Source: a virus
Length of the DNA: 24,593 nt
Reading direction: 5' to 3' (one strand)
IMG/VR virus record: IMGVR_UViG_3300027978_000022
Location: 1-24,593 of that record
In this document: in pieces, positions 1,442-22,580 of the stretch
Layout of the letters: each line of letters starts with the position of its first letter
Position numbering within the stretch: position 1 is the first letter of the stretch
Program-made: the position numbers and the translations under genes
The notes under the pieces: generated by a model
What the model was told of the DNA's origin: nothing
Databases searched by the model: none
What the model saw: only the letters and a program-made list of their open reading frames with translations

Positions 1442-1830
1442 GATACCTGCTCCAAGCAGACCATCCATGAGGCGCATAGTATTAGTGGATTAGACATCGG
1501 GTTAAAGAACTACACTCTTGTAATAATAGAGAAACATAGTGGTTTAAATGTCCCCGGTAGTATCAAATAAGACTTATAGTATAAGATTGAGGGTAGGATT
1601 ACAATGGACTAAGGAACCACCTACGGAGGCTAAAGACGGCTTAATCGAAATCATAAGTTAATATCGCACCTAGTAATAGAATGTCAAACACTAAGGGGCA
1701 AGTAATGTAAACTACTAAGGGGTTAACTAAATAACTAAAAAGAATAGCTTATCTAAACCCAGTCTGAAATGATGATAACATCTTCGATGTATATCATCGA
1801 ACGGCATCGGCGTGGAACACGCGATTGCCG
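1442..1830 (+). ncRNA. Probable structured RNA or long structured leader (family not recognised)
   Basis: No ORF of useful size lies here, but perfect helices nest in an orderly way. GATAC (1442-1446) pairs with GTATC (1560-1564) and encloses three arms: CTGCT/AGCAG (1447-1459), ATCCA/TGGAT (1463-1490), and a long arm at 1493-1552 built from GACAT/ATGTC, TTAAA/TTTAA, ACTA/TAGT and CTCT/AGAG. CGGG (1498-1501), inside that arm, can pair with CCCG (1553-1556) outside it, a possible pseudoknot. Further helices are CTTAT/ATAAG (1573-1585), GATTGAG/CTTAATC (1585-1591 with 1640-1646, one G-U), GTAGG/CCTAC (1593-1624), AGTTAA/TTAACT (1656-1728), a hairpin at 1771-1798 and a GC-rich 12-bp hairpin with two bulges at 1802-1830. 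ACTAAGGGG occurs twice, about 25 bases apart. Four helices contain or extend by U-G pairs in the plus reading, against one in the minus reading, which favours the plus strand. The stretch could be a free ncRNA, the leader of the gene at 1866, or part of a packaging site. I looked for tRNA, tmRNA, RNase P and group I intron cores and saw none. Confidence 0.45.
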
Positions 1831-1865: not shown

Positions 1866-2339
1866 ATGAGATTAGATATAGATACACTTAAAGTTAAAGT
1901 ACCTAGATGCGTAAAGACTAAAGATGAAAGCATTGCTATTTTATTTGCATTCATACGTAGAATTATACTTGAGTATGACCTAGGTGGAGAATGGGTAGAT
2001 ATGTACGGTTCTGACATTAGAAAGATATTAGACCGAATGGATGATAACATACATGACTACTTAATGGAATATGTAGATTCAAGTGAATGCAAAATAGTTC
2101 AGCTTAGTAGAGAGCATTATGTATTTAAATTAAAGAACTGGAGAAGACATGTAAACGCAGTACCAATAACAAAACATAAAAACATTACTAGATGGGCTTA
2201 CCTTATGGGCTGTACTAACTATAACTTATTAGAAAAAGATGGCTTGAACTTAGATGATAAAAAAAGACCACACTACACCGGCATGTTTAGATACGACAGA
2301 GATCTCTTCATCTTCGGTAAAGATGACCTCTATGAATAA
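1866..2339 (+). CDS. Hypothetical phage protein, 157 aa, first gene of the packaging operon
   Basis: I do not recognise this protein. It is mixed alpha/beta in appearance, rich in Asp, Arg and Lys, without membrane segments or cysteine motifs; only three Cys are scattered through it. It follows the structured region directly (ATG 35 bases after the last hairpin) with no Shine-Dalgarno sequence. Its last codons overlap the start of the sigma-like gene by 8 bases, so the two are probably translationally coupled and used together. Upstream position in a late operon would fit a regulator or packaging accessory, but nothing in the sequence proves this. Confidence 0.7.
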   Translation: MRLDIDTLKVKVPRCVKTKDESIAILFAFIRRIILEYDLGGEWVDMYGSDIRKILDRMDDNIHDYLMEYVDSSECKIVQLSREHYVFKLKNWRRHVNAVPITKHKNITRWAYLMGCTNYNLLEKDGLNLDDKKRPHYTGMFRYDRDLFIFGKDDLYE

Positions 2340-3728: not shown

Positions 3729-4955
3729 ATGGAATTCACAGGCTTCACACCACATACTAAACAAAAGGAAATGATTAACTCTATATTAGAGAGTAAGTCA
3801 AAGTTCCATGTAGCCTGTGTAGGTAGACAGTTCGGTAAATCCTTAATGGCAATGAACCTAGTTCTATACTGGGGTATTAACAAGGGACCTGCAAAGATCC
3901 TATGGGTTAGTCCGGTATACAGTCAAACAGATAAAGTACAGAAAGAACTGATGGCTGCCATTGGAGATAGTGGCTTAGTAAAATCGTGCAACTACTCATC
4001 AAATGAAATAACTTTAAAGAATGGTACGCAGATCTTATTCCGTTCAGCAGAGAGATACGATAACATTAGAGGACTTACATGTGACTACGGAGTAATAGAT
4101 GAAGCAGCCTTCTGTAAAGATGAAGCATGGCAAGAGGCTATCCGTCCAGTCTTTATGGTCCGCGGCAAGAAAGTACTATTCATCTCCACACCAAAAGGTA
4201 AGAACTTCTTCTATGACTTATATCAATTAGGAGTAAGCGAAGACTACCCACAATACTGTAATTACACAGGGACATCATACGACACACCATACATAGATCC
4301 AATAGATATTATGGATGCAAAGAAGACACTGCCAGAGAATGTATTCAAACAAGAGTACATGGCAGCCTTCATAGACTCAGGAGGTGAAGTGTTCTCTAAC
4401 TTAGATAAGAATACATTTACACAATACCCTAGACCACAAGGCAAGATCTTCTGTGGTATTGACTTAGGTAAGCAGGAGGATTATACAGTAGCTACCTTCC
4501 AAGACTCAAGAGGTAATGTAGTAGACATCTATAGATCTAATGCACAAGAGTGGACGACGATGGTTAATGAGATACTTATCAGGATCCGTAAGCACAACGC
4601 TACCGTAATGGTGGAAGTAAACTCTATTGGTGATGTGATATTCGAAATGATTAAACGACAGTGGCAAGACACACATCCATTTGTTACTACCTCTAAGTCT
4701 AAACAGGAGATCATCGAGGGACTCATACTTGATATGAATGACACCGCAATTACTATCCCAGATGTTGGGCTATTCTCATGGCTTTACAACGAGCTCTCTA
4801 TGTTTACATATAGTTACAATCCTAAGACAAGATCGATTAAGTATGGTCACCCAAGTGGCCAGCACGATGATACGGTGATCTCGCTGGCAATTGCAAATTA
4901 CAATCGTAAGCAAAACAAAACTATGGGTACCTATGCTGTGATGGGAGGCCGATAA
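3729..4955 (+). CDS. terL: Terminase large subunit (packaging ATPase and nuclease), 408 aa
   Basis: This is the packaging motor. The ATPase domain shows a Walker A of the phage type, GRQFGKS (residues 32-38), Walker B VIDEAA (122-127, catalytic Glu125) and a coupling motif FISTPKG (151-157). The RNase H-like nuclease domain has its metal-binding acids at Asp245 (GIDLG), Glu296 (VEVNS) and Asp380/Asp381 (HDD near the end). All key residues are present and the length is usual, so the gene looks intact. It abuts terS without a gap. The following gene is separated by 42 bases that hold the repeated 38-base element, so transcription is likely reset there. Confidence 0.95.
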   Translation: MEFTGFTPHTKQKEMINSILESKSKFHVACVGRQFGKSLMAMNLVLYWGINKGPAKILWVSPVYSQTDKVQKELMAAIGDSGLVKSCNYSSNEITLKNGTQILFRSAERYDNIRGLTCDYGVIDEAAFCKDEAWQEAIRPVFMVRGKKVLFISTPKGKNFFYDLYQLGVSEDYPQYCNYTGTSYDTPYIDPIDIMDAKKTLPENVFKQEYMAAFIDSGGEVFSNLDKNTFTQYPRPQGKIFCGIDLGKQEDYTVATFQDSRGNVVDIYRSNAQEWTTMVNEILIRIRKHNATVMVEVNSIGDVIFEMIKRQWQDTHPFVTTSKSKQEIIEGLILDMNDTAITIPDVGLFSWLYNELSMFTYSYNPKTRSIKYGHPSGQHDDTVISLAIANYNRKQNKTMGTYAVMGGR

Positions 4956-12493: not shown

Positions 12494-12526
12494 TTCAAAT
12501 GACTAATAATTTATATTTAATAGTAT
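12489..12526 (+). promoter_or_regulatory. Copy B of the 38-base repeated element, candidate late promoter
   Basis: It matches 4960-4997 at 31 of 38 positions, with AGTAATTCA and TTATATTTAATAGTAT identical. It starts inside the last codons of the large tail gene and its final two bases are the A and T of the tape measure start codon, a position shifted by 2 bases compared with copy A. The TATATTTA core lies 5 bases before the ATG. The same dual reading applies: a phage late promoter giving almost leaderless mRNA, or a translation-start element. Confidence 0.55.
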
Positions 12527-14330
12527 GGCAGATAAAGTAGTAAAAATAACCTTTGAGATCGACGGCCTAGAGCAGTCGGTCACAAACATAGATGATGCAA
12601 AAGCAGCGTTACAACAGCTAGAGACTCAAGCTAAGAAAACAGAGGATGCTGCTGAAAAGGCTGCTGATGGATTTGATGAACTTGGAGATGCTTCGAAGAA
12701 AGCAGCTGAAGGTGGTGAAGGAGCTGTCTCAGTACTTGATGAAGCTACTGGTGGTTTAGCTAGTAGATTTAAAAATGTAATAGTAGGTGTAAAACAAATG
12801 GGAGTTGCTCTAAAGGCCTCTTTCAAATCTGGTGTTGCAGGAGCAAGTTCATTAAAGAAAGGTATTGCAGCAACTGGTATTGGTTTACTAGTAGTAGCCT
12901 TAGCAGCTATCGTTGCCTATTGGGATGATATAGTTGGCTTAGTATCTGGTGTAAGTTCAGAGCAGAAGAAACTTAACGCAGAAGTAGAGGCTAATGTTGC
13001 ATCACAACAAGAAGCACTAGATGCAATCTCAGCACAAGAGAATAGTTTAAAGTTACAGGGTAAAACCGAAGCAGAGATCAGAGATCTTAAGATAGAGCAA
13101 ACAAATGAAGTAATTCAGGCTACTATCATGCAGTTAGAGCAAATGAAGAAGACCAAAGATGCACAGGTCGCAGCTGCTCAACGTAATCAAGATATTGCAC
13201 AAGGTGTTATTAGATTCTTAACGCTACCTATTACAATGTTATTAGCTACTGTAGATGCAATGACTGCTGCAGTTTCTATGATACCAGGTATTGATATTGG
13301 TACTAATCTAGAAGAAGGTTTTAGTGGTGGTATTGCTGGAATGATATTTGATCCTGAAGAGGTAGCATCAGAAGGTGACGCGACCATAAAGGAGACTGAG
13401 GCACAGCTGACTAAGCTTAAAAACTCTAGAGATGGTATGATACTCCAGGGTCAGAAAGCTGATCAGGATGCGGCTGACAAAGCGGCGGCAGATAGAGAGA
13501 AAATGAATGCTGATGAACTTGCAGCCGCAGAGAAACTTGCAGCTGACAAGAAAGCAATCAAAGATAAAGAAGATGCAGAAGCTGCAGCTAGATTAGCTAA
13601 AGAAATTGCAGATGCACAGATAGTTAAAGACCTGTTACAACAGGCTGACTTAGATCTAATACAATCTGCATACGACAGAGCACAAGCAGAATTAGAGATA
13701 CAAAGACAAGCTGATATTGAGAAGATCACACAAGCAGGAGCAACTGCAGATGAGATCGCTAGAATTAATCAGCAATATGATAACAAATCAAAGAAATTAG
13801 AACAAGAGAACTCTGACTTTAAAGAGGCTCTTAATGAAGCAGATGTAGATAACGCACTAGCCGCAGGTAGTCAAGTACTTGGAGGTATTATTAGTATCGT
13901 AGGTGAAGGTAGTGCTATTGGAAAAGCTGCGAGTTTAGCCCAAGTCGCGATAGATACTTACGGTTCTGCTACAGCAGCTTACAAGTCTGTAGTTGGTATA
14001 CCAGTCGTAGGACCTGCACTTGCACCAGTTGCAGCGGGTGTTGCAGTGGCCGCTGGACTAATGTCTGCAAAAAAGATAATGTCTGTAAAGACTCCAGGTA
14101 ATAAGTCGGCAGGAGCGCCTCCAGGTATATCTATACCCTCAGCACCTGCATTTAATCCTACTACTGCATTACAAGCTGGAGCAGATGCTGAACAAGACAA
14201 TACACAAGTAACACTAGGAGAACAAACAGGAAGCTCAGGACCTACTGTAGTAAGAGCATACGTAGTAAGTTCAGAAGTTACAGGACAGCAAGAGGCTGAT
14301 GCTAAAATAAATGACCTAGCAAGACTATAA
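12525..14330 (+). CDS. Tail tape measure protein, 601 aa
   Basis: Composition and layout are those of a tape measure: a short folded start (VVKITFEIDGLEQSVTNIDDA), Ala/Glu/Lys-rich coiled-coil stretches (about residues 25-65 and 290-440), and hydrophobic segments at about 115-132, 227-260 and 490-515 (GLLVVALAAIVAYW; VGPALAPVAAGVAVAAG). Such proteins set tail length, fill the tube and help DNA cross the host membrane. At roughly 1.5 Angstrom per residue it would suit a tail near 90 nm; this is an estimate from a general rule. The repeated 38-base element immediately precedes it. No lytic domain is visible. Confidence 0.75.
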   Translation: MADKVVKITFEIDGLEQSVTNIDDAKAALQQLETQAKKTEDAAEKAADGFDELGDASKKAAEGGEGAVSVLDEATGGLASRFKNVIVGVKQMGVALKASFKSGVAGASSLKKGIAATGIGLLVVALAAIVAYWDDIVGLVSGVSSEQKKLNAEVEANVASQQEALDAISAQENSLKLQGKTEAEIRDLKIEQTNEVIQATIMQLEQMKKTKDAQVAAAQRNQDIAQGVIRFLTLPITMLLATVDAMTAAVSMIPGIDIGTNLEEGFSGGIAGMIFDPEEVASEGDATIKETEAQLTKLKNSRDGMILQGQKADQDAADKAAADREKMNADELAAAEKLAADKKAIKDKEDAEAAARLAKEIADAQIVKDLLQQADLDLIQSAYDRAQAELEIQRQADIEKITQAGATADEIARINQQYDNKSKKLEQENSDFKEALNEADVDNALAAGSQVLGGIISIVGEGSAIGKAASLAQVAIDTYGSATAAYKSVVGIPVVGPALAPVAAGVAVAAGLMSAKKIMSVKTPGNKSAGAPPGISIPSAPAFNPTTALQAGADAEQDNTQVTLGEQTGSSGPTVVRAYVVSSEVTGQQEADAKINDLARL

Positions 14331-21443: not shown

Positions 21444-22580
21444 ATGAGAAATACACCAGAAGGCATTTATTCAATTAAGGGATCAGAATTCCAAGCCATT
21501 GAATTACCAGACATTAAAGAAGTCCGTAGTAAAGATTACATGTATTACGGCAACCTAAACTTGTTCCCACAATCATTAATACAACTATATGACACTAGTG
21601 CCATGCACCATACTGCTGTTGATGCTATTACAGCTGGTATTGTCGGCGATGGCATCGAAATCATCGGTGATGAATACATTAACCAAAATGGTGAAACGAT
21701 TGAAGAGCTTTATGAAAAGATTTCGTTAGATTATGTATTATTTTCTGGTTATGCTATTAATGTAATATGGTCTAAGGATCGTACAAAGATTTCAGAGATT
21801 TATCACTTACCATTTAGTAATGTAAGATCAGGTAAACCTAATGAAGAAGATAAAGTAGAGAACTATATGTACTCTGCTGATTGGTCTAACCTAAGAAAAT
21901 ATCCATACCAAGAGTATAAAGCATTTGATCCTACAGATAATAAAGGTGACAATGCGTCACAAGTATTCTATTTCTATGGATATACTCCAGGAAATCAGGT
22001 TTACCCACTACCTAACTATGTAGCAGCGATGAATGATATTTCATTAGATGCACAAGTATCTAGATTCCACGCAAACAATATAGCAAATGGCCTAGCGCCA
22101 AGTATGTTTGTTAAGTTTAGAAATGGCGTGCCTTCACCAGAAGAGAGAAGAGATGTTTATCAAGAGATAGAAAAAACATTTACAGGAACAGAAAACGCAG
22201 GTCGTTTCTTTTTAAGTTTTTCAGAGGCCGATAAAACACCAGAAGTGACTCCAATTGAATCCGGAAACGATACATATTATTTAACCCTAGAAGAGCGTAT
22301 AAGCTCACGAATCTTAACAGCACATAGAATTACATCCCCATTACTATTGGGCATCAAGGACAGTGCCGGTTTTAGCTCTAACGCGGAAGAGATCAGAGTT
22401 GCGTATGCACACTTCGAAGGAACTGTAGTAGAACCTAAAAGAAAGAAGATATTGCAAGGCTTTGGTTACATGCTAAGATTAGCTGGTTACAACGTAGCTC
22501 TTAAAGTAAGACCTAACAAGCTAGTTAACGAAGCAGAGATCGAAGACACTGCACCACAAGAAAACATAGAATCACTATAA
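21444..22580 (+). CDS. Portal protein, 378 aa
   Basis: This is a portal of the compact kind. Typical stretches are the opening clip and wing regions (NLFPQSLIQLYDTSAMHHTAVDAITAGIVGDG), the YVLFSGYAINVIWSKD strand, the long stem helix region (DISLDAQVSRFHANNIANGLAPSMFVKF), and ISSRILTAHRITSPLLLGIKDSAGFSSNAEE, where HRI(T/P)-x-x-L-x-G is a strong portal signature. The dodecameric portal forms the DNA gate at one capsid vertex and docks the terminase. The gene is 8 bases after its neighbour and 1 base before the next, yet far from terL, which is unusual. Confidence 0.85.
   Translation: MRNTPEGIYSIKGSEFQAIELPDIKEVRSKDYMYYGNLNLFPQSLIQLYDTSAMHHTAVDAITAGIVGDGIEIIGDEYINQNGETIEELYEKISLDYVLFSGYAINVIWSKDRTKISEIYHLPFSNVRSGKPNEEDKVENYMYSADWSNLRKYPYQEYKAFDPTDNKGDNASQVFYFYGYTPGNQVYPLPNYVAAMNDISLDAQVSRFHANNIANGLAPSMFVKFRNGVPSPEERRDVYQEIEKTFTGTENAGRFFLSFSEADKTPEVTPIESGNDTYYLTLEERISSRILTAHRITSPLLLGIKDSAGFSSNAEEIRVAYAHFEGTVVEPKRKKILQGFGYMLRLAGYNVALKVRPNKLVNEAEIEDTAPQENIESL

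Follow-up and report, generated by a model that had tools for sequence, protein, structure and literature searches.

The window, by which we mean the whole stretch of DNA analysed, is a 24.6-kb IMG/VR fragment of an uncultured marine tailed phage with 38% G+C. The closest portal among isolates is that of Nonlabens phage P12024S (30% identity), and a host within the Flavobacteriia is therefore likely; comparison with isolate phages by DNA similarity returned chance matches only. The genes referred to below, and the gap that precedes them, are as follows:

1136-1865: 730-bp gap between a tail gene (end 1135) and orf1
1866-2339, plus strand: orf1-class gene (157 aa), the constant downstream neighbour of the RNA described here
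3729-4955: TerL, of the ordinary terminase family phrog_2
12525-14330: tape-measure-like protein
21444-22580: portal

The gap holds no ORF of at least 60 aa and, as originally predicted, the stretch 1442-1830 is free of genes: no ORF of at least 60 aa overlaps it on either strand, and its indels relative to the related locus L006 are mostly not multiples of three. The protein encoded by orf1 had no Pfam or PHROG match, and a structure search with its AlphaFold model (pLDDT 79) gave weak winged-helix or replication-initiator-like matches, none of them significant. The small orf2 (2254-2859) has a sigma-factor-like look and no Pfam match, and P12024S carries a sigma-70 region 2 protein upstream of its terminase, at the place corresponding to orf2.

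Predicted fold and its conservation

The elements of the predicted RNA and its flanks, all on the plus strand, are listed by position:

1409-1437: promoter TGAAAC-N17-TATAAC with a tandem ATATATAA inside; transcription is expected to start near 1442
1442-1564: 5' domain, a four-way junction closed by helix A (1442-1446/1560-1564)
1447-1459: arm P1, hairpin CUGCU-CCA-AGCAG, unchanged in L006; GGUC-GCAA-GAUC at the same place in L178
1463-1490: arm P2, AUCCAU (1463-1468) with GUGGAU (1485-1490); positional counterparts in L006 and L178
1496-1558: arm P3, made of helices C (AUCGGG 1496-1501/CCCGGU 1553-1558), C2 (ACUAC 1509-1513/GUGGU 1539-1543) and F (CUCU 1515-1518/AGAG 1528-1531)
1565-1736: middle region of less certain structure, with hairpin GUAGG (1593-1597)/CCUAC (1620-1624)
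1691-1698 and 1715-1722: two CUAAGGGG repeats in the middle region
1737-1769: conserved 3' core AAAAAGAAUAGCUUAUCUnnACCCAGUCUGAAA, nearly invariant in the window, L006, L085, L063, L110/L091 and L096
1771-1798: 3' hairpin hp1, 42 of 42 cells paired in six sequences, 7 of 7 columns doubly changed
1802-1830: 3' hairpin hp2, 32 of 32 cells paired in four sequences, three columns doubly changed
1851-1868: second promoter-like element AATATATATTGTATGA, at the orf1 start codon

TerL relatives provided 80 loci. Three of them, L002-L004, do not differ from the window, and in the gap L006 and L085 share about 75-80% identity with it. The original prediction had proposed a comparison of folding energy with dinucleotide shuffles. 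On the plus strand the single sequence 1442-1830 folds only modestly better than its shuffles, 5 of 100 of which match it (z = -1.60), and the minus strand gives z = -1.50, so the decisive support is comparative. The consensus fold of the window and L006 outperformed column shuffles by a wide margin (z about -6; none of 200 reached it), and 14 stems of at least 5 bp with compensatory change were observed in this pair against 3.6 +/- 2.0 expected. The consensus was also better on the plus strand (-6.6) than on the minus strand (-4.6), the strand preference that had been claimed from the outset.

DNA pattern searches added L089/L110, L091 and L096, all with the common 3' domain. A covariance model of this domain (R1), built from four sequences, recognised the held-out L063 with 34.6 bits (E 7e-5) and, among the 71 loci of a loose pattern scan, had one match, L178, with 40.5 bits (E 3.5e-6). 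The 5' and middle regions of L178 are 61% identical to those of the window over 249 nt (E 8e-10), and by these matches L178 is identified as a third, distant RNA of the window type. The window-type comparison thus comprises three divergent RNAs, those of the window, L006 (~75%) and L178 (~60%). The helices of L178 were placed by hand, by position and order, because automatic alignment at 50% identity is unreliable; in most classes, pairwise stem counts from MAFFT alignments with L178 at this identity did not exceed those of shuffles.

Helix A reads GAUAC/GUAUC in the window, GACAC/GUGUC in L006 and AACGC/GCGUU in L178 (15/15 paired, three of five columns doubly changed). Helices C (18/18) and C2 (15/15) are fully paired in the three RNAs, as F (8/8) is in two, and each of these helices includes a doubly changed column; the counterparts of P2, compared by eye, are CCUC/GAGG in L006 and UCCAU/AUGGA in L178. 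Since L178 keeps helices A, C and C2, arms P1 and P2 and the terminal hairpins in the same order, the four-way junction enclosed by GATAC/GTATC had been drawn correctly; it is kept in the window, L006 and L178 through compensatory changes, as is the predicted long arm with its helices C and C2. The alignment of homologous regions, suggested earlier as a check, hence gave compensatory changes in A, C, C2, F, hp1 and hp2, and the two strong terminal hairpins of the prediction are present and covarying, hp1 completely so in six phages. The proposed CGGG/CCCG pairing exists and is supported by covariation. As it stands, however, it nests within the GAUAC helix and is not a pseudoknot; it would be one only together with GACAU/AUGUC, which is not kept in L006. 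The middle hairpin GUAGG/CCUAC is kept in L006, and the 3' core is slightly diverged in L178. These comparisons indicate that the predicted folded shape is conserved in related phages even though their letters differ.

Two further helices were considered and set aside. One of 10 bp (1537-1546/1708-1717) is shared with L006 and absent from L178, and it competes with the better-supported C2, so that it is taken as unproven. A long-range helix (1490-1495/1762-1767, UUAGAC/GUCUGA), a candidate for a group-I-like P7, is likewise kept in L006 and fails in L178.

A sister type with another 5' domain lies at the same genomic place in L063, L110/L091, L096, L032/L092, L033 and L040. This 5' domain consists of hairpin P1, a loop pseudoknot and helices a, b and c, and all its pairs are formed in six sequences: P1 36/36 (2 of 6 columns doubly changed), the loop pseudoknot 30/30 (1 of 5), a 36/36 (4 of 6), b 36/36 (5 of 6) and c 48/48 (6 of 8), one bulged base in helix c of L040 being ignored in the count. 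Helices a, b and c together give 120 of 120 paired cells and 15 doubly changed columns. Their strands follow the order a5', b5', c5', a3', b3', c3', which makes the three helices mutually crossing, either coexisting or alternating; with the covariation behind it, this is an unusual RNA topology worth solving. The window-type 3' domain stands under the sister 5' domain in four contigs (L063, L110, L091 and L096), and L032, L033 and L040 join the sister 5' domain to other 3' ends, so the predicted RNA is modular. These other 3' ends lie at 3650-3800 in L032, 3640-3790 in L033 and 3780-3920 in L040; in L032 and L033 two short hairpins come after a long A+T-rich one (TCTTTTTGGGTTATTTAATTAACCAAAAAAAGA).

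Promoters, the cargo slot and neighbouring genes

The promoter-like sequence from which transcription had been expected to begin at the foot of the first helix is real (1409-1437), and its motif recurs before related RNAs. In the related loci TGAAAC-N16..18-TATAA has 62 distinct copies against 5.2 expected under a first-order Markov model, a count made in the same set of loci from which the motif was derived. Across loci L008-L112 it stands before cargo and structural genes. A TGAAAC-type promoter stands immediately upstream of the RNA in the window (1409), L006, L085, L091, L096, L040 and L063, and its copies separate the RNA from the HNH gene in L096 or from another small ORF in L091; L032, L033 and L178 have no exact copy directly before the RNA. 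By this recurrence TGAAAC-N17-TATAAC is assigned as a putative group-specific promoter, ending at the first RNA helix. The product of orf2 may be the reader of the motif, and the motif itself could serve to map the transcription units of these uncultured phages.

The gap also contains a minus-strand unit (1372-1221), a candidate for a small RNA, in which about 110 nt and a strong intrinsic terminator come after a leftward promoter TTGAAAC-N17-TATAAT (1372-1343). The stem that closes it shows covariation (GUGUCAAUC/GAUUGACAU in the window, CUGUAGACGG/CCGUCUACAG in L112, GUGUAGAUUGG/CCAGUCUACAU in L008), the terminator stem covaries too, and plus-strand equivalents of the unit occur in L028, L038, L016, L018 and others.

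The arrangement around the structured RNA resembles that of a cis-acting leader, in which the nascent RNA would control transcription or translation of orf1 and later genes by put-like antitermination or a switch between competing helices. A promoter immediately precedes the RNA, a long operon in the same orientation follows it, the next gene is always of the orf1 class, and the RNA closes with two hairpins; no intrinsic terminator was recognised at its 3' end, so read-through into orf1 is possible. The competing helices needed for a switch would be C2 and 1537-1546/1708-1717, both kept in L006, but the second is missing in L178. Of nine RNA-bearing loci, seven have the element ATATA-N-TATR before the orf1-class gene; of 28 loci lacking the RNA, seven do (Fisher p 0.014, the loci being related and not independent); in L032, where the start of the orf1-class gene was called too early, the true start also has this element. 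Given this second promoter-like element behind the RNA in most RNA-bearing loci, transcription of orf1 and the packaging genes need not pass through the RNA, and most relatives carry the same genes without it. The put RNA of phage HK022, which acts in processive antitermination, is also much smaller, with two stem-loops in ~70 nt just behind an early promoter (PMC9378689), whereas hp1 and hp2 lie 3 nt apart and ~330 nt downstream of the expected start. On balance a leader role is possible but rather unlikely.

The RNA occupies a hypervariable slot between the tail-fibre genes and orf1 (1136-1865 in the window), in which HNH, GIY-YIG or DnaD-like/helix-turn-helix genes or the RNA are found. Only a minority of related loci carry it, and there it occupies the same position; of the relatives that share the terminase, most are without it, their slot being filled by HNH_3, GIY-YIG or helix-turn-helix genes. 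Such patchy presence favours an accessory function over an essential packaging site or an obligatory leader. In L085 a window-like RNA and orf1-orf4 (87-98% identical) are joined to a different terS-terL pair (47-53% identical), a recombination junction just downstream.

An HNH_3 gene precedes the RNA in L032, L033, L096 and L178 and fills the slot without the RNA in L010, L016, L018, L028 and L038, from which one might take the RNA for part of a selfish element, working with or derived from the homing endonuclease as a degenerate intron or recognition RNA. But the RNA stands without HNH in the window, L006, L085, L040, L063 and L091, models of group I and II introns gave no match at E up to 10, and in the RNA-bearing loci examined the RNA is intergenic and interrupts no gene. 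This origin is therefore quite unlikely.

The original placement of the RNA just before the terminase genes needs qualification: in the window terS and terL do follow the RNA, at distances of ~1.6 kb and ~1.9 kb, but its immediate neighbour, in the window and elsewhere, is the orf1-class gene and not the terminase itself. This proximity is what speaks for a packaging signal (pac/cos) or a packaging RNA. A packaging site would be present throughout the phage group, yet most phages that have a closely related TerL and an almost identical order of genes lack the RNA; the observed preference for the plus strand would not be needed by a site in the DNA; and in L178 the order downstream is orf1-class gene, portal, DUF6712 and terS, the last 2.7 kb away. 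We give this explanation hardly any weight. Of the three functions first offered, the large phage RNA fits best and the packaging-site element is disfavoured.

Proposed function and comparison with known RNAs

Scans of the window, L096, L033 and others against Rfam 15 gave no match at the gathering cut-off or at E up to 10, so the description as unrecognised, made before any database search, is borne out. Bacterial and archaeal genomes scanned with a pattern of the 5' domain yielded two contigs, and blastn of the RNA sequences against both found nothing. Together with the covariation and the recurrent promoter, this supports the main claim of an unrecognised structured RNA on the plus strand whose start coincides with the foot of the first helix. 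From these comparisons we regard as established a conserved family of predicted structured RNAs with its own putative promoter and a modular architecture, not in Rfam and known as a whole from about nine distinct sequences; 1442-1830 is probably a new kind of phage RNA.

As to its role, the reading we prefer, though with no better than an almost even chance of being right, is an accessory, modular noncoding RNA of ~390 nt, transcribed rightwards from its own phage-type promoter and most likely acting in trans. A separately transcribed trans-acting RNA is favoured because of the cargo slot, the minority presence, the orf1-class neighbour and the second promoter. It is further supported by covariation in three window-type and six sister-type RNAs, by the recovery of held-out and new members with the covariance model, by RNA-specific promoter copies and by the lack of an Rfam family. 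The missing 3' terminator, the inexact or absent promoter copy in L032, L033 and L178 and the small number of sequences count against it, as does the constant orf1-class gene 3' of the RNA, since pure trans cargo would not need orf1.

In the trans-acting reading, transcription would run rightwards from the promoter at 1409-1437, and the transcript would fold into the 5' four-way junction with one long arm, then the middle region, then a single-stranded 3' core and two hairpins. The exchangeable 5' domain would contact a specific partner, and the common 3' domain would anchor a shared factor and protect the 3' end. We infer separate accumulation, action in trans and this division of labour. More tentatively, we propose an undescribed class of modular RNAs in marine phages that probably infect Flavobacteriia. 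Its members would combine one common 3' domain with ornate 5' domains of unrelated kinds, exchanged within an arms-race cargo slot, and would act in trans on a target in the host or in a competitor. Close relatives with and without the RNA at one defined slot provide natural deletion pairs. To our knowledge, conserved tertiary architecture is known from only a small number of phage noncoding RNAs, and for the best of them, GOLLD and ROOL, the function is unsolved; the present family would be a smaller, modular addition to them.

Among known systems, the packaging RNA of phi29 is likewise a phage RNA near packaging genes, but the RNA described here has no Rfam match, is lacking in most relatives and accompanies a TerL of an ordinary family. 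The likeness to HK022 put RNA is confined to the position after a promoter and the paired hairpins (PMC9378689); the RNA studied here is 390 nt long, has a four-way junction and is followed by a further promoter-like element. Racr RNA-based anti-CRISPRs, which mimic CRISPR repeats, are also phage-encoded noncoding RNAs used in trans, the role we infer for this RNA (PMC10651486); no CRISPR-repeat-like feature was found here, there being no accepted Rfam match.

A multimeric RNA-only cage like those of GOLLD and ROOL was also considered and is very doubtful. The structured region of ~390 nt, between the promoter end (1437) and the orf1 promoter (1851), falls below the 600-nt length set for GOLLD, ROOL and OLE and compares with 659 nt for the ROOL studied and often more than 800 for GOLLD; the covariance models of all three in Rfam 15 gave no match at the gathering cut-off or at E up to 10, no tRNA gene was found in the 24.6-kb window, and the neighbourhood is an HNH cargo slot. 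What the RNA shares with GOLLD and ROOL is that they are phage-encoded and elaborately folded, with several pseudoknots (here in the sister type), and the conserved 3' region with a variable 5' region described for GOLLD is found in this RNA as well (PMC12286853).
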